Origin: a virus
Length of the DNA stretch: 37,170 nt
IMG/VR virus record: IMGVR_UViG_3300042197_001747
Span: 1 to 37,170 of that record
Direction: 5' to 3' (one strand)
In this document: in pieces, positions 335 to 28,517 of the stretch
Numbering within the stretch: position 1 is the first letter of the stretch
How the letters are laid out: each line of letters begins with the position of its first letter
The notes under the pieces: generated by a model
The model's input: only the letters and a program-made list of their open reading frames with translations
Told to the model about the DNA's origin: nothing
Database searches by the model: none
Made by a program: the position numbers and the translations under genes

Positions 335-621
335 TGGCCTCTGTGGGACTTGAACCCACACGGGATTACTCCCAACGGATTTTCTTACCACTACAACTTT
401 CGTTGCCATTTCTGTTTGTGGTCTGGACTATATCTTTACCATTACTACTTCTAGTTTTAGGTATCGCCTGTTTAGTCTCTACACCTTTCTGATTACTCAG
501 ACTTGGCTCGGTATTAGCAGTTAAGCTTTCACCGAATTTAAGCGATTCTACTTTAGGGGTTTCCTCCTAAGCACTCAAATTGTATAAGTCCGTTGCGGCT
601 GCCTATTACGCCAAGAGGCCA
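335..621 (-). tRNA. tRNA-Leu(UAA), split by a group I intron
   Basis: Exon 1 (621-586) and exon 2 (383-335) form a complete class II-like tRNA. The acceptor stem TGGCCTC/GAGGCCA pairs over all 7 bp. The anticodon stem is ACGGA/TCCGT around the loop CTTAAAA, giving anticodon UAA (Leu). The variable arm (TGGGAGTAATCCCG) is long, as in tRNA-Leu, and the T arm is GTGGG-TTCAAGT-CCCAC. CCA is not encoded. The intron lies between U34 and A35, the classical position of the cyanobacterial/plastid tRNA-Leu(UAA) intron. It probably supplements decoding of UUA, which an AT-rich genome uses heavily. Confidence 0.95.
384..585 (-). ncRNA. Group I self-splicing intron in tRNA-Leu(UAA)
   Basis: This 202-nt intron follows a U (U34) and ends in G, the omega-G of group I introns. 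P1 pairs exon ACUU with intron GAGU, giving the required U-G wobble at the splice site. P2 is CTTAGG/CCTAAAG. The core strings are recognisable: P-like AATTCGGTGAAAGC, Q-like AATACCGAGCC, R-like GTAGAGACTAAACAG and S-like AAGATATAGTCC. P7 forms from GACTA/TAGTC. It has no internal ORF and is compact, as in the tRNA-Leu IC3 introns, so it should self-splice without a homing enzyme. Confidence 0.93.
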
Positions 622-9572: not shown

Positions 9573-9581
9573 ATATGATAG

Positions 9582-9935
9582 TGGACGAGTCGGGAGTCGA
9601 ACCCGAGTCTTGCGATATTTCTAACTATGCTTTCTACAAGTTTATTTTGTTCATTAGTTAAATAGGATTTTAGAACAAACAAGATTCTTCCCATTTTACC
9701 AACTTTGCTTAACTTATAATCTGTTGGATATTATAAGTGCAGAGGGATTTAACGACAGATTTTTGATCGCTACCCTCGTTCGCAATCGCAATCTGTTACT
9801 GCCCGTTTTATTAGGCAGCAAGGGCTAACTGAGTTGTGCCAGTTAAAGCATTTAATCGACTTTTAAAGTGGCCGGTCGATTAACCACTACTTGCTTACAT
9901 AATCTTCTATATCCAATCGATACCTTTACTCGCCC
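9582..9935 (-). ncRNA. ssrA: tmRNA (transfer-messenger RNA)
   Basis: A complete 354-nt tmRNA. The acceptor stem is GGGCGAG/CTCGTCC (7 bp, one G-U), and the T arm is TCGGG-TTCGACT-CCCGA. The tag frame reads ALTGTTQLALAA followed by two stops (UAA UAA). GCU is the probable resume codon. Pseudoknot 1 just upstream has AGUGG/CCACU as stem 1 and UUAAUCGAC/GUCGAUUAA as stem 2. Later pseudoknots are ACAGATT/AATCTGT with GAGGG/CCCTC, and ACTTATAAT/ATTATAAGT with CCAAC/GTTGG. CCA is not encoded. With SmpB it frees stalled ribosomes and tags the peptide for ClpXP-type degradation. No smpB is in the window, so the host's would be used. Confidence 0.96.
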
Positions 9936-15634: not shown

Positions 15635-16284
15635 TCTAGTTCATATCCTCCGATAGCCTCTGAAATTATAGGAAATTGTTTACAAAAAATGTATTTACAA
15701 GCTTTTGCTAATTCTTGATGTTCTTTTTGCGTTCCATTTTTTTCTCGTAAAGATATATAATGTATCCAAGATCTTAAGCTTCCACTAATATAAAGTCTTG
15801 TTGGAGTAGCCAATGGTAGAACAAATCTAGCACACTCTTTAGCCACGCCATCTTGTATCATACCGTCATATAGGGCTTTACTTTTAGCAAAATGTTCTCT
15901 GATTCTAGTATTCCATTTAGCTTTGATTTCAGACGATAGATCATCTGTGCTATTTTGTCTATTTTTTGTATCTTGGCGTCTTAACTCAAATAAAGGTATA
16001 TTATCTGCTAATAAAGTTGTATCAGCATATCTTTGACTAAATTCTTGGAAAGTAAAACTTCTATGTCTTAAAATTTGAGCAGCTAGTCCTCTGGTAGTAT
16101 TAACTTCTAAAGTTAGAAATGCTTGCTCAAAAATAGACCAGTGTTTATGATCTATACAATATTTTAATAATTTTGCACAGTTTTCGTTATCTTGATTTTT
16201 TGGATTAGAAACTCTGGCACAATAAGCTATCAATTTTTCTGCGTCAGGAGTAACTGAAATAAGTTTGACAAATTCTTCATTCAT
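15622..16284 (-). CDS. thyX: Flavin-dependent thymidylate synthase
   Basis: The 220-aa protein has the ThyX signature RHRSFTFQEFSQRY at residues 73-86 (RHRxxS-type motif). Other family blocks are AYCARVSNP, HWSIFEQ, and ARFVLPLATPTRLYISGSLRSWIHYI. It makes dTMP from dUMP using FAD, NADPH and methylene-THF. This supplies thymidine for an AT-rich genome. The start overlaps the phosphoesterase gene upstream by 8 nt. Confidence 0.97.
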   Translation of the reverse strand: MNEEFVKLISVTPDAEKLIAYCARVSNPKNQDNENCAKLLKYCIDHKHWSIFEQAFLTLEVNTTRGLAAQILRHRSFTFQEFSQRYADTTLLADNIPLFELRRQDTKNRQNSTDDLSSEIKAKWNTRIREHFAKSKALYDGMIQDGVAKECARFVLPLATPTRLYISGSLRSWIHYISLREKNGTQKEHQELAKACKYIFCKQFPIISEAIGGYELEWNV

Positions 16285-16951
16285 ATGTCACCAGATTAAC
16301 TTTTCCATTAGTTATAGTTAAATAAGTACACACGGTATCAGTCCACGACCCACTATTATAGTATTCAATATATCCCAAATCAACAGATGTTGGATGATGA
16401 GTATGACCAACGCAAATAACATTAGCATTTCGATGTTTACAATATTCTAATGCTCGTTTTTCTACTTTTTCTATCGCTCTTAAAAAGGTTTTGCTACTTC
16501 TTTTTAACTTTCTTGCTAAGTACAAGGATGGATCTAGTTTTTGCACAATCCGATAAAAGAAATCTGCTAATTTAGCCAACCGAGGATATTTGGATACGTA
16601 TTCGTCAAAGATATCTCCATGTAAAACTATAAATTCCTTTTCACCATTATTAAATCTATATTCTTCTATAAATTCTATATTCAATAACTGAGATATAATA
16701 TCTGCTGGCCCATCATGATTTCCTGCTATCCATGTAGTATGTATTTTTTCAGAAGCTTTGCGTATAGTTTTTAAAATTTTCCAATGATTATGGCTTAGTC
16801 TGGTAAAATTCCAATTATCAAACAAATCTCCATTAATAATTAAATGATTAGTACGAAATTCAATACTTTGTAAAAAATGTAGAATTTTGTCGTGTTGGCA
16901 AATATGAGAACCTAAATGTATATCACTAATAATGATAATATCAGATCTCAT
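16277..16951 (-). CDS. LpxH-like metallophosphoesterase
   Basis: The 224-aa protein has the calcineurin-like site: SDIHLGSH (D9, H11), NGDLFDNW, AGNHDGP, VLHGDIFD and VGHTHHP. Its layout, with DEYVSKYPRLAKLADFFYRI between, fits COG2908-type enzymes related to UDP-diacylglucosamine pyrophosphatase (LpxH). A lipid A role in a phage is doubtful; nucleotide or lipid pyrophosphate hydrolysis is the safer call. Confidence 0.85.
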   Translation of the reverse strand: MRSDIIIISDIHLGSHICQHDKILHFLQSIEFRTNHLIINGDLFDNWNFTRLSHNHWKILKTIRKASEKIHTTWIAGNHDGPADIISQLLNIEFIEEYRFNNGEKEFIVLHGDIFDEYVSKYPRLAKLADFFYRIVQKLDPSLYLARKLKRSSKTFLRAIEKVEKRALEYCKHRNANVICVGHTHHPTSVDLGYIEYYNSGSWTDTVCTYLTITNGKVNLVTYE

Positions 16952-18919: not shown

Positions 18920-19209
18920 AGCAACGGCTCCCCGCTTTCCCAAATATAAATCATTTTATATATGGGGTCGGTATTTCCTTCATGAATTAAATCTATTGGT
19001 CGCTTATTATCAAATGCTTTATTGGGTTTGTGTAGCCAAGTATCGACCTTAGTTTCGTCAAATAAATCGCCTAACTTTATTCTTAATGATAGTTCTTCTG
19101 ATTTATTAGCGATATTACGGAGCCTATGGATGAAATCAGCGTTAGGATCATCTCCAAACATATTAGTTAGTCTGGTAATAATCCAGTTAAGGAATTCTTT
19201 ATCGTTCAT
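18916..19209 (-). CDS. Orphan antitoxin-like (MbcA/ParS/Xre C-terminal-type) protein
   Basis: The 97-aa protein starts at ATG with AAGGA four to five bases upstream. Its C-terminal half (TWLHKPNKAFDNKRPIDLI, then IYKMIYIWESGEPL) has the W..xPNxAFxxxxPxxLI pattern of the DUF2384 toxin-binding domain of RES/Xre antitoxins. No RES-type toxin is next to it. It may neutralise a host toxin or be a phage regulator; both are inference. The N-terminal half is helical. Confidence 0.6.
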   Translation of the reverse strand: MNDKEFLNWIITRLTNMFGDDPNADFIHRLRNIANKSEELSLRIKLGDLFDETKVDTWLHKPNKAFDNKRPIDLIHEGNTDPIYKMIYIWESGEPLL

Positions 19210-19772
19210 TTTTATCCTTACTATTGAACAGTTTTTGTATTTCCTTGAAACTCCACGGCTCTCCAAACGGCTTATTGTAATTTACAGTATTGTCAACACC
19301 AACGTCCAGAGTTTTTCGTTTTGACTCTTTATCTTCATGATCTAGTTTGCCATGACAATGAGCATACAGATGATAACTGCCCTTATGAGAGGCGGGCCAC
19401 GAACGACAAGGGTAGTGAAGTAGATATATTCTTTGATTACAATATATTATTTCTTTGGCTTCTTCTATCGAAATAAAACCTTGAAGATTATCATTATAAT
19501 CAGACAGTTTATCGTGGTTGCCTCTTATGAGGAAAATATTCTGACAAACTATTCGTGAACGATATTCTATAGGTTTCTTGCCTCTGAAACAAAAATCGCC
19601 CAGTATATACAGAGTATCATCAGCCCCCACAGTTTCATTTATTCTGTCGAGTATAACTTGATCCATTATATGAACATTATCAAATGGACGATTACAATGC
19701 TTGATTATATTATTATGACCTTAGTTAGCCCGAAGGCTAACCAAAGTGAGTATCAGATGTGAAATATATCAT
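19199..19772 (-). CDS. Metallophosphoesterase split by a hairpin gap (candidate translational bypass)
   Basis: From the ATG at 19772, eleven codons give MIYFTSDTHFG and then a UAG stop. The frame resumes exactly at the CAU after a second GGU, giving HNNIIKHCNRPFDNV and the rest of a 183-aa phosphoesterase. Motifs across the join are complete: D7-T-H9, YILGDFC, IRGNHDK, LLHYPCRSW and AHCHGK. Without the first 11 codons the DxH metal ligands are lost. The ORF starting at an internal ATG (19666) would be an inactive truncation. A GGAG lies 18 bases before the first ATG, so initiation is weak or uses the upstream gene. It is either a gene with ribosomal bypass or a hairpin insertion that broke the gene. 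Confidence 0.75.
19718..19742 (-). other. Candidate translational bypassing element (hop GGU to GGU)
   Basis: Take-off codon GGU (19740-19742) is followed at once by UAG. The next 19 nt (19721-19739) fold with the take-off codon into GGUUAGCC-UUCG-GGCUAACU, an 8-bp stem (one G-U) with a UUCG loop. A second GGU (19718-19720) is the landing site, and CAU follows in the frame of the protein. T4 gene 60 has the same parts: matched Gly codons, a stop right after take-off and a UUCG hairpin. The 22-nt insert is not a multiple of three, and no U-run follows, so it is not a terminator. Confidence 0.65.
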
Positions 19773-19796
19773 GATATCACTTATTATTTTCTCCTT

Positions 19797-21165: not shown

Positions 21166-22188
21166 TTATTCCTTCAATAGAAATTGATTATTAATAGCCT
21201 TAAAACTAACTGTTCCAAAAATGTCCCTTATTACTATTCCTTCTCTTTCTTGAGAGGGTTTAGCAGATAAGAAGTGTTGAACATATTTGCCCTGTGCCAG
21301 TTCCAATAGATCGTCTACAGTATACCCGAAACTTTCACCTTTTTCAAGTACCGGCACAAATTTTAAACCTAATCGCTCAACAATACTCAAACTATCATCC
21401 AAACACAATTTAGTATTAGTAGGAATATCTACAACATTAAAAACATACAAATCTGCTATTGGTAAACCTAGTGGGTTTTTTTGCACACCGGGAGCAACAA
21501 CCTCTCCCTGTATAGCAATTTTTCTGCCCTCATTCCACAAGTCTCTTAATCCCTGCTCAATATTGTACCTTTCAGCTATTTGCCAAAAACTATGCTCTTT
21601 TTTGTTTTGGTAGCTAAAATTTCGCCCACAAACGTGAAAAGTCTCGTCTGAGGGGTCGATTAAAAAGGTGCTGCTCGTACCATCTAGTTTTAAACTAATG
21701 TAGTATGGTCGCCCTGTGAGAGTCTCAATGAACTTATATTCATCATCTAACTGAACCCTAACCTCATCAGTTTTACTAATAGGCCACAAGAACCTTCTTG
21801 CATCACCAACTATTGCTGCCGGAATTGGTGGCTCATATTTTTCTATTCCTAATAGTTCACTAACATCATCTCCAACGGCCAACTCTGCTAGTTTAGGAAA
21901 TACACTTATTGGTAATGCTAAACCCTGACTTAGTTGTTTGCGTAGTTTTATTGTTTTGAGTCTAAACTTTTTGAGAGAATCATTCCAACAACTTTTGCGT
22001 AGAAACTCAAACTCTGGAATCTCTGGTAGTAAGGAGTCTATCTCAAAATAAACACAAAGATCATCTGGTTGAAATTCTCCTTTATTGCTAACGCACTCCC
22101 AACCTAAAATTCCGACAGTTTCTATACTATCAGCATCCGGTATAGGTTTAACATATTTGATCTTTTGTATACTAGCTAACTTTCTCAT
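21166..22188 (-). CDS. RNA ligase of the DraRnl (Rnl5) family
   Basis: The 340-aa protein has an N-terminal OB-like domain (~1-130), then the ligase motifs. Motif I is K167-LDGTSS, followed by GRNFSY, IQGEVV (motif IIIa/IV region), EGIVIRD and SFKAINNQF (motif V). Family members seal 3'-OH/5'-PO4 nicks in RNA, or in an RNA-DNA hybrid, through an adenylated intermediate. Adenylation uses ATP. With RtcB 0.7 kb upstream in the same run, the phage has two different RNA-sealing chemistries. It overlaps the gene upstream by 17 nt. Confidence 0.9.
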   Translation of the reverse strand: MRKLASIQKIKYVKPIPDADSIETVGILGWECVSNKGEFQPDDLCVYFEIDSLLPEIPEFEFLRKSCWNDSLKKFRLKTIKLRKQLSQGLALPISVFPKLAELAVGDDVSELLGIEKYEPPIPAAIVGDARRFLWPISKTDEVRVQLDDEYKFIETLTGRPYYISLKLDGTSSTFLIDPSDETFHVCGRNFSYQNKKEHSFWQIAERYNIEQGLRDLWNEGRKIAIQGEVVAPGVQKNPLGLPIADLYVFNVVDIPTNTKLCLDDSLSIVERLGLKFVPVLEKGESFGYTVDDLLELAQGKYVQHFLSAKPSQEREGIVIRDIFGTVSFKAINNQFLLKE

Positions 22189-22704: not shown

Positions 22705-22925
22705 AAATTATCTCCTATTGTTGAAGCAAAGAATCCGAAGCTAAATATCCAAGAGATAATAAGCAAAACAAAACAATGACCAAATACCCAATAGTTGTCG
22801 TTTCCGTAATTATATTTAAAATACATCACAAGAATATAACAAGCATAATAATAGATAAGCGTAAGAATAATCGAAACCGATGTTGCAAGTATTCCGCTAA
22901 TAAGCATTTTCAATAAAGGATTCAT
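22701..22925 (-). CDS. Two-span membrane protein
   Basis: The 74-aa product starts at an ATGA overlap with rtcB. Hydrophobic segments lie at ~6-35 and ~46-70. It sits between RtcB and the STAS-like protein in one coupled run (24286 to 22408). Function unknown. Confidence 0.62.
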   Translation of the reverse strand: MNPLLKMLISGILATSVSIILTLIYYYACYILVMYFKYNYGNDNYWVFGHCFVLLIISWIFSFGFFASTIGDNL

Positions 22926-24286
22926 TTCTTTTTTCTCCACGGCTTTTCTATATGTCCCGCCATGATACACCCATAGGGTTCTATTTCATCTACAACTGTT
23001 CCTAGATTAAAATGACTAATTTGTTGTTTGATTTTTTCGGCATTTTTGTAAGCACTAGGCAACTCACTTATGTCTATCTTACCAGAAAAAAATCTAACGT
23101 CAAGACCAGTTGTTTCCTCGTAGAATAATTCTTCCGATGTTTTGTCAACTAATCTATTTCTTTTATGTTCTGATCTACTAAAGTTGCGTCCAGCACCATG
23201 AGGAGCAAATCCAAGACCATTATTGTTTTCTAAACCTTTTACTACCAGTATAGGTTGGCTCATGTTTAAAGGAATAAGTCTAAGCCCATTGTATGAGTCT
23301 GGAACAAAACTATCATCCATAGGAGTAGCCCCCTTGGCATGATAGAATACATCATCTTTCTTAAATACAAAATTATGTTCATTCCAGAATCTTTCTGAAT
23401 ATACAGAACCCTTAACCTTATTTCTTATAGAGTCATGTAAAGATTCATGATTTACTTTTGTCCATTCTCGTACTATCTGAAGAGCCTCCCAATAATCCTG
23501 ACCCTCTTTAGTATCAAAAGGAATCCACGCATTTTTACTACTAACATTGGGGGCTATTTCTTTGCGGAAAGATTCAGCTTTGTATACTCCTTCATTGTAA
23601 AGATTGGCCCCGAATCCTCTGCTACCATGATGAGTAACTAAGTAAGTATGATTATTACTCTTGCTTATTCCAACAAACAGAAAATGATTACCATCACCCT
23701 GAGTACCAAGGTGACTATGAGCATACTTTAAACTTTTATCACTATTCAGATAATAGTTGCTTTGTATTTTCTCTTTAAGATCAAGAGGAAGTCTTATTAA
23801 TTGATCGTTTCTATCTCTTCCGCCTATTCCAAAATGAGTAGTTTCAAAAGCAACATCCATTACTTTTCTAGGATCGGTATGTCCTAAATCAGTAGCCATA
23901 ACTGAACAGCATATATCCGCACTGTGCATACGAGGATGAATAGCATTTTTAGTTGCTATTATCCCACCCACAGGAATTTCATCTTTACCTGTAGGACAAG
24001 CATCTGGCATTACCGCAGCATCTACTGCTGTGGGTATTGTGAGCAAAGAGTTCATAGCCTCATAAACAGACTTTATATTTTTCAACTCATGCTCATTGTC
24101 GGCCAGAATATTTTTGTGAAAATCTATAGGATTAGACAATGGTTCAACAACTTTAGGAAGTATTGAACTTATATGGTTATGCAATTGTTCTGTATTAAGA
24201 TCATTAGTATTAGCATACTCTATGACAGAACTAAACCATTTAGACGGTTGATATCCTAAATCAATTAATGTTTTTCCACTTATCAC
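22922..24286 (-). CDS. rtcB: RtcB-type RNA ligase
   Basis: The 454-aa protein has the RtcB metal and GTP site. MPDACPTGKDEIPVGG (93-108) is followed by SADICCS (D124, C127), GTQGDGNHF (H201), THHGSRG (H219/H220), HAKGATP (H316) and APHGAGRNFSR with the guanylated His (H363). The enzyme joins 2',3'-cyclic phosphate or 3'-P ends to 5'-OH with GTP and Mn. It can heal tRNAs cut by host anticodon nucleases. It overlaps both neighbours by 4 nt, so it is probably co-translated with the 24283-24597 protein. Confidence 0.95.
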   Translation of the reverse strand: MISGKTLIDLGYQPSKWFSSVIEYANTNDLNTEQLHNHISSILPKVVEPLSNPIDFHKNILADNEHELKNIKSVYEAMNSLLTIPTAVDAAVMPDACPTGKDEIPVGGIIATKNAIHPRMHSADICCSVMATDLGHTDPRKVMDVAFETTHFGIGGRDRNDQLIRLPLDLKEKIQSNYYLNSDKSLKYAHSHLGTQGDGNHFLFVGISKSNNHTYLVTHHGSRGFGANLYNEGVYKAESFRKEIAPNVSSKNAWIPFDTKEGQDYWEALQIVREWTKVNHESLHDSIRNKVKGSVYSERFWNEHNFVFKKDDVFYHAKGATPMDDSFVPDSYNGLRLIPLNMSQPILVVKGLENNNGLGFAPHGAGRNFSRSEHKRNRLVDKTSEELFYEETTGLDVRFFSGKIDISELPSAYKNAEKIKQQISHFNLGTVVDEIEPYGCIMAGHIEKPWRKKK

Positions 24287-27900: not shown

Positions 27901-27928
27901 ATTATACCAGACTATCCTATGGTGTCAA
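27901..27928 (-). promoter_or_regulatory. Sigma70-like promoter (GGATA, TGG)
   Basis: TTGACA (27923-27928), a 16-bp spacer with GGATA ending TGG, and TATAAT (27901-27906). It overlaps the last codons of the phosphoesterase gene on the right. Confidence 0.82.
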
Positions 27929-28517
27929 TCTCTAGTTCATTTAGACATTTAAACTGTGTTCCATTAATAGTCATAGACCAACTTTTATGCCAATGTCCAA
28001 AATACCAATATTTAGGCTGATGTATATTGAATAGTTCCTGTAATGCCCAACCAGTATTTTGCTGAAATATCCTACCATTTGGAGGTATAAGATAATGGGC
28101 AACACTTTCTGGACAATCATGAGTTAATACAATATCTGGTTTAACTTGACGATAAAGTTCTCTAGCCTTCATAAAGCTTTCAATTTTTACCTGCTCTTGT
28201 TCCCACCAGTCTATTCCTATAGTACGGTATATCTGATCGATACTCCATGCTCCACGATAATAGAAAAAATCTATGCTATTAAAGTTCACCATATATCCAT
28301 AGTCACCAAGATAGTTAGGAACATCCGTAACCTTATCATAGTTGTCGTGATTACCTCCTATAAATACATGATGTTTAGGATCGACGTTTTTTAATGTTTC
28401 ATAATTGAAACCAAAGTCACCTAATTGTACAGTAAATGGATGTCTGTCTTTTTCTCTAATGATTCTATGGTAGCGTTCATACTTACCATGAACATCACCT
28501 ATAAGTGTTATACTCAT
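27912..28517 (-). CDS. Metallophosphoesterase
   Basis: The 201-aa protein has the calcineurin-like motifs GDVHGKY (D8, H10), LGDFGF, GGNHDNY, LTHDCPES and FGHWHKS. It is a compact enzyme similar to small phosphoesterases in phages. It may hydrolyse phosphodiesters or nucleotides; substrate unknown. It is the third such enzyme in the window and, unlike 19199-19772, has an unbroken frame. Confidence 0.88.
   Translation of the reverse strand: MSITLIGDVHGKYERYHRIIREKDRHPFTVQLGDFGFNYETLKNVDPKHHVFIGGNHDNYDKVTDVPNYLGDYGYMVNFNSIDFFYYRGAWSIDQIYRTIGIDWWEQEQVKIESFMKARELYRQVKPDIVLTHDCPESVAHYLIPPNGRIFQQNTGWALQELFNIHQPKYWYFGHWHKSWSMTINGTQFKCLNELEIDTIG

Follow-up and report, generated by a model that had tools for sequence, protein, structure and literature searches.

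The locus examined here raises the question of how a phage gene that meets a stop codon after eleven codons could still yield a complete protein. It lies on the minus strand of the window, by which we mean the whole 37,170-nt stretch of viral DNA analysed (IMG/VR record IMGVR_UViG_3300042197_001747). There, an ATG at 19772 opens the reading MIYFTSDTHFG, the last codon of which, GGT at 19742-19740, is followed by TAG at 19739. After a 22-nt gap, TAGCCTTCGGGCTAACTAAGGT (19739-19718, minus strand), which itself ends in GGT, the CAT at 19717 starts HNNIIKHCNRPF..., and this frame stays open up to a stop at 19199 (minus strand). An earlier note had read the locus in this way and had pointed to the two GGU codons and to the UAG that begins the gap; the sequence confirmed these points, including the 183 aa of the joined product (11 + 172). 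The joined protein is a calcineurin-like phosphoesterase that matches phrog_547 with an E value of 2e-45, as against 8e-37 for the downstream part alone; the phosphoesterase family match is to PF00149, with ORF2 as the remainder of the metallophosphoesterase. The features of the site are as follows.

19791..19796, minus strand: Shine-Dalgarno-like AAGGAG, 18 nt 5' of the ATG (sequence)
19744..19782, minus strand: predicted 5' stem-loop AAGUGAUAUCAU.../...GAUA(C)UCACUU, with the start codon inside and the 3' arm stopping 1 base before the take-off codon (folding)
19740..19772, minus strand: ORF1, 11 codons (MIYFTSDTHFG), containing the metal-binding DxH motif (sequence, homologue alignment)
19740..19742, minus strand: putative take-off codon GGU (Gly11), paired within the stem (sequence, pairing comparison)
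19737..19739, minus strand: UAG stop adjoining the take-off codon (sequence)
19726..19739, minus strand: inner (putative A-site) hairpin UAGCC-UUCG-GGCUA, the same as in T4 gene 60 (sequence comparison)
19718..19747, minus strand: predicted extended take-off stem (13 bp), whose 3' base holds the landing codon (folding)
19718..19739, minus strand: non-coding gap, 22 nt (sequence, relatives)
19718..19720, minus strand: putative landing codon GGU; the next codon, CAU, is the conserved His of the relatives (sequence)
19199..19717, minus strand: ORF2, 172 codons plus stop, the rest of the metallophosphoesterase (phrog_547; PF00149) (profile matches, selection)

No second site of comparable anatomy was found elsewhere in the window. 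Three metallophosphoesterase genes lie within 12 kb of one another (16277-16951, 19199-19772 and 27912-28517, all on the minus strand), with the insert in the middle one only.

By analogy with T4, we consider it very probable (roughly 85%) that the 22 nt serve as a compact element for translational bypass of the kind found in T4 gene 60. The published T4 features comprise matched Gly codons, an adjacent UAG and an A-site stem-loop (PMC5009743, PMC11194080). According to the T4 model, when the P site contains a Gly codon and the A site contains UAG together with the hairpin, the tRNA is released, slides and pairs anew with a matching Gly codon, while a 5' stem-loop favours movement in the forward direction (PMC11194080, PMC5009743). 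Judged from the sequence, the elements of this model (Gly, UAG, A-site hairpin and 5' stem-loop) are all present here. T4 gene 60 itself reads GATGGATAGCCTTCGGGCTATCTATAG, with an annotated gap of 50 nt, and comparison with it bore out the likeness drawn in the earlier note (Gly codons, adjacent stop, UUCG hairpin, 50-nt gap). No earlier report of bypass in these genes was found in open-access papers.

The 8-bp UUCG hairpin described in that note, GGUUAGCC-UUCG-GGCUAACU, is correct, yet it forms the inner part of a longer 13-bp stem, ACUUUGGUUAGCC/GGCUAACUAAGGU (19747-19718, -17.6 kcal/mol), which also includes, on its upstream side, the take-off codon and preceding codons. Pairs p1 to p10 are intact in all eight element types (window, L157, L002, L019, L043, L075, T4 and L065), p1-p5 having belonged to the search pattern and the remaining pairs not fully. 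Pair p6, formed by the wobble base of the take-off codon, covaries, being U-A in the window, A-U in T4 and G-C in the T4-like phage L065; p9 is U-A or A-U, p12 is C-G, G-C or U-G, and the tetraloop varies from UUCG to UGCG, all variants still being UNCG. UAG stands immediately 3' of the take-off codon in every element. Take-off and landing codons are GGU/GGU in eight records, GGU/GGC in L075 and GGU/GGA in L043, and this last difference counts against bypass. The His codon before Phe-Gly is CAC in eight close genes, in contrast to CAT in close insert-free relatives, and the C of that CAC base-pairs with the landing codon. The pairing of the gap tail with the upstream codons was matched by 13 of 2000 shuffles for the window and by 29 of 2000 for L043. 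Since the eight close elements are kin, much of this conservation is not independent.

The distribution of the insert was established from scans of 2.9 million viral contigs (IMG/VR records), and the homologues are metagenome records. Related phages carry the gene in both forms, nine with the insert and more than 30 without. The 22-nt insert occupies the same site in the window, L002, L004, L007, L019, L143 (=L023), L157 (=L103) and L159 (=L024), and the ninth case, L043, which is a distant homologue from a contig of 194 kb, has a 26-nt insert there. The insert-free relatives, the checked relatives of L043 included, read ...DxHxG-H... directly or have the Gly substituted. In the complete scan of the 2.9 million contigs, the pattern GGTTAGCCTNCGGGCTAA...GG occurred at 11 places, 8 of them at the phosphoesterase site, the other three being L075, L029 and L030; the core hairpin was present in exactly one copy per record in 10 records of 19-223 kb. 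The recurrence of the 22-mer at the same site in independent records, together with the 8 of 11 places in the scan, puts the insert beyond chance. Mapped on the protein tree, the insert shows a scattered distribution, with five changes, at least three of which are forced by well-supported branches, and the insert-bearing L019 is sister to L017, which has none. Searches of bacterial genomes gave neither a match to the insert pattern nor a close protein relative.

Other hairpins were met in these scans. L029 and L030 represent one shared GC-rich locus in which a split gene was not apparent on inspection. Further matches to the hairpin pattern, among those listed and examined, proved to be part of a coding sequence in a different frame or else resembled UTRs or terminators, and within that set no split genes were found besides L043, L065, L075 and the phosphoesterase records. 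A recurrent element, TCTATCTCTCTCACTTTCTCAA followed by GGGTAGCCTTCGGGCTACCC, often lies directly 5' of a start codon (L027, L028, L035, L037, L042 and about 20 loci); it is a UTR-like hairpin from another phage group, with no split gene. The hairpin ACAGGGATAGCCTTCGGGCTATCTCCTGT / ACAGGGGTAGCCTTCGGGCTACTCCCTGT shows compensatory changes and is apparently intergenic (L038, L052, L056, L058 and L072). As to other RNA features, a phage-encoded tmRNA (tag GTTQLALAA) lies at 9581-9935 of the window (minus strand), and tmRNA is also found in G001, G003, G005, G006, G007 and G008, and so in seven of the eight records with the 22-nt insert. A group I intron is located at 402-595 (minus strand), and group I introns are present in G002, G004 and G008, too.

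No residues are gained or lost where the two parts of the protein meet. The solved homologue 1xm7 runs across the join position in a gapless alignment (MIYFTSDTHFGHNNI / MMYFISDTHFYHENI), and in the alignments with it and with the insert-free relatives the join is seamless. The gaps measure 21, 22 or 26 nt, three different classes modulo 3, and the correct protein is rejoined each time; since the downstream frame thus takes every possible register, one single frameshift is insufficient. The downstream part of the eight 22-nt genes has pN/pS values of 0.16-0.35 (pS 0.5-0.8), with all frames open. Changes in the 11 upstream codons are mainly synonymous, the sole amino-acid change (T to I) being found in insert-free relatives as well. 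By these measures, both flanks of the insert evolve as protein and are under purifying selection.

A 5' stem-loop is predicted in all nine insert-bearing phosphoesterase genes, with its 3' arm stopping just before the take-off codon; the arms are AAGUGAUAUC.../GAUA(C)UCACUU in the window, AAAGUGAGU/ACUCACUUU in L002 and L019, and AAAUGAA.../UUCAUUU in L043. Its z values range from -1.8 to -3.2 in these nine genes, compared with -0.9 to +1.3 in 15 insert-free genes, none of which (0/15) showed a stable 5' stem-loop. The folding energies of the two groups differ with p = 0.0003 in a rank test that overstates the independence of these related sequences. In compact elements the 3' arm of this stem-loop extends over part of the lower take-off stem, and, unlike in T4, the two structures would therefore compete. 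As the 5' stem-loop holds the start codon, it could alternatively control initiation. As regards a 3' stem-loop, the insert-bearing genes did not differ from the insert-free ones.

The element is not confined to phosphoesterases. On the phage contig L075, MDAQRILIFRSGAFG is followed by the 21-nt TAGCCTTCGGGCTAACTAGGC and then by DNIILTPVIRFLK..., and the gene interrupted in this manner encodes a GT9 glycosyltransferase (PF01075, 4e-9), unrelated to the phosphoesterase. As no useful match was obtained among GT9 relatives sought in phages, plasmids and the PDB, the second GT9 of the same phage served as comparator; the alignment with the joined protein is gapless across the join and scores 178, against a shuffled maximum of 65. 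The insertion context is TTTGGT, as in the phosphoesterase. At the equivalent position L075 shows GACGCGC/GCGCGUU as a 5' stem-loop, with p = 0.003 for the last 40 nt and 0.02-0.08 for longer windows. The same contig has a weak group I intron match at an HNH gene, apparently splitting a capsid-like gene.

Other ways of obtaining or losing the protein were weighed against these data. If the 22 nt were cut out of the RNA, by cutting and ligation of the tRNA type or by an unknown ribozyme, the ribosome would read a continuous message. The exact boundaries of the insert, with their GGT repeat, agree with such removal, as do an RtcB-type ligase (22922-24286) and a second RNA ligase (21166-22188) encoded on the minus strand of the window. 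RtcB was not found, however, in the nine other records tested, which include contigs of 223, 197, 194 and 158 kb and may be fragments. An unbulged hairpin of 21-26 nt, with a perfect 13-bp stem in the window, offers no bulge-helix-bulge and is too small for a ribozyme, and the Rfam families gave no match at the insert site. Splicing would also leave unexplained why UAG is fixed as the first codon and why the take-off codon is paired, and we regard it as improbable. We give as little credence to a broken gene, whether it yields a short peptide and, by re-initiation at an internal Met, a separate downstream product, or is in decay, perhaps under the control of the hairpin. An internal ATG (HI-M-DQ) does lie 17 codons past the gap; yet the DxH metal ligands sit upstream of the gap, and the 17 codons between gap and Met are kept in frame with the family-invariant H1, I4, I5, C8, R10, F12 and H16. 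The pN/pS values given above are unlike those of decay, and so are the downstream frames, intact in all nine insert-bearing records.

Decoding of the gap by ribosomal frameshifting or stop readthrough appears very improbable. The +1 frame is open across the gap in L157 and the -1 frame in L043, but in the window and six other 22-nt records (all except L157) the +1 frame is closed by a UAA within the gap, L043 would need another shift, and L075 would need readthrough of an in-frame UAG and UAA. A slippery sequence is absent, and the extra residues would fall in an active-site loop where the relatives have none. Hairpins can disturb sequencing, and the insert might on that ground be an assembly or sequencing artefact; its occurrence in nine records, each with an IMG/VR sample number of its own, in variants that preserve the pairing, leaves this a negligible probability. 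An intrinsic terminator was also considered and rejected, the hairpin having no U-run after it; none was found. Of these four processes (frameshifting, readthrough, termination, RtcB splicing), none accounts for all the copies.

Based on the T4 model, we propose that bypass at this site proceeds in several steps, in which (i) the ribosome would translate the 11 codons and arrive at GGU with UAG in the A site; (ii) the UAGCC-UUCG-GGCUA hairpin would fold in the A site and displace the release factor; (iii) the peptidyl-tRNA-Gly would release GGU, and the mRNA would slide by 25 nt; (iv) the tRNA would re-pair at the landing GGU, and decoding would restart at CAU to give one 183-aa phosphoesterase. 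The 5' stem-loop may act as a ratchet, its 3' arm closing only once the ribosome leaves the take-off site, and the shorter slide may require less anchoring than in T4. A KKYK signal is impossible with just 11-18 residues preceding take-off; the motif is absent, and the residues before take-off match those of the insert-free relatives. In T4, bypass drops below 10% upon mutation of this nascent-peptide motif (PMC11194080), which, together with so few upstream residues, shared with insert-free relatives, makes the efficiency of bypass uncertain here. The best reading of the elements is a compact class in which the gap is 21-26 nt, take-off comes after no more than 11-18 codons, a nascent-peptide signal like that of T4 is lacking and inheritance is patchy. 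The suggestion in the earlier note of a minimal, second type of bypass gains support: gap length, seamless join, protein-like flanks and the rejoining of three registers speak for a minimal element, which is nevertheless not wholly unlike T4, as it shares the stop codon, the A-site hairpin, the take-off stem and also the 5' stem-loop, and lacks only T4's long gap and its extended nascent-peptide signal.

The same note had alternatively suggested a mobile hairpin that inserts without harm to its host gene. The patchy distribution, the GT9 copy and a cassette of about 80 nt (ribosome site, first codons and insert), which the window shares at 80-100% identity with L007, L157 and L159 in unrelated upstream neighbourhoods and with gene bodies mostly 55-85% identical, agree with this; recombination at the 5' end would give the same pattern. 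L012 has an upstream region similar to that of L002 and L019, yet it is without the insert. The pattern fits possible recombinational spread of the gene's 5' end, or independent losses. For the T4 cassette, spread by recombination has been proposed. We see about even chances that small mobile bypass hairpins of common origin with the T4 gene 60 insert have spread among unrelated phage genes (phosphoesterase, glycosyltransferase and topoisomerase) with hops of 21-51 nt, the compact members depending on RNA structure only and doing without a long signal in the nascent peptide.

To our knowledge, T4 gene 60 is the one well-studied phage example of high-efficiency ribosome hopping. Shorter counterparts are presumed to exist in reviews (PMC5009743). 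If our reading is true, natural, compact and conserved bypass elements exist in several phages and in two further gene families; the essential parts of the T4 signal would be the stop codon, the A-site hairpin and the 5' stem-loop, the long nascent peptide and the long gap being dispensable, and genes interrupted in this way would escape gene callers.

Among the known systems, the byp elements of Magnusiomyces capitatus mitochondria are likewise short non-coding inserts in several genes that are skipped in translation (PMC5009743); they depend on organellar ribosomes with context-independent, relaxed decoding, in contrast to the phage setting and the one conserved stop-bearing hairpin described here. 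Short bypass has also been proposed for two candidates, the Prevotella loescheii adhesin (29-nt hop) and the terminase of Streptomyces phage Hau3, which are described without this hairpin and without conserved homologues in several phages (PMC5009743). A T4-like topoisomerase (L065, 162-kb record, minus strand near 2871-2887) has a GGG-UAG take-off, the same hairpin and a 15-bp stem; with its in-frame 51-nt gap and its take-off at the T4 gene 60 position, it differs from the compact elements and, on its sequence, clearly represents the T4 gene 60 system. T4 gene 60 itself resembles the compact elements in its Gly take-off and landing codons, the UAG right after take-off, the identical inner hairpin UAGCC-UUCG-GGCUA on a stem prolonged upstream of take-off, the 5' stem-loop and the patchy presence among related phages. 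It encodes a topoisomerase subunit, with a 50-nt gap as opposed to 21-26 nt and 46 codons before take-off as opposed to 11-18 without KKYK, whereas the elements described here belong to other genes and phages, have the landing codon at the base of the stem, and carry a 5' stem-loop that lies directly against the take-off codon and draws on some of the same bases as the lower take-off stem.
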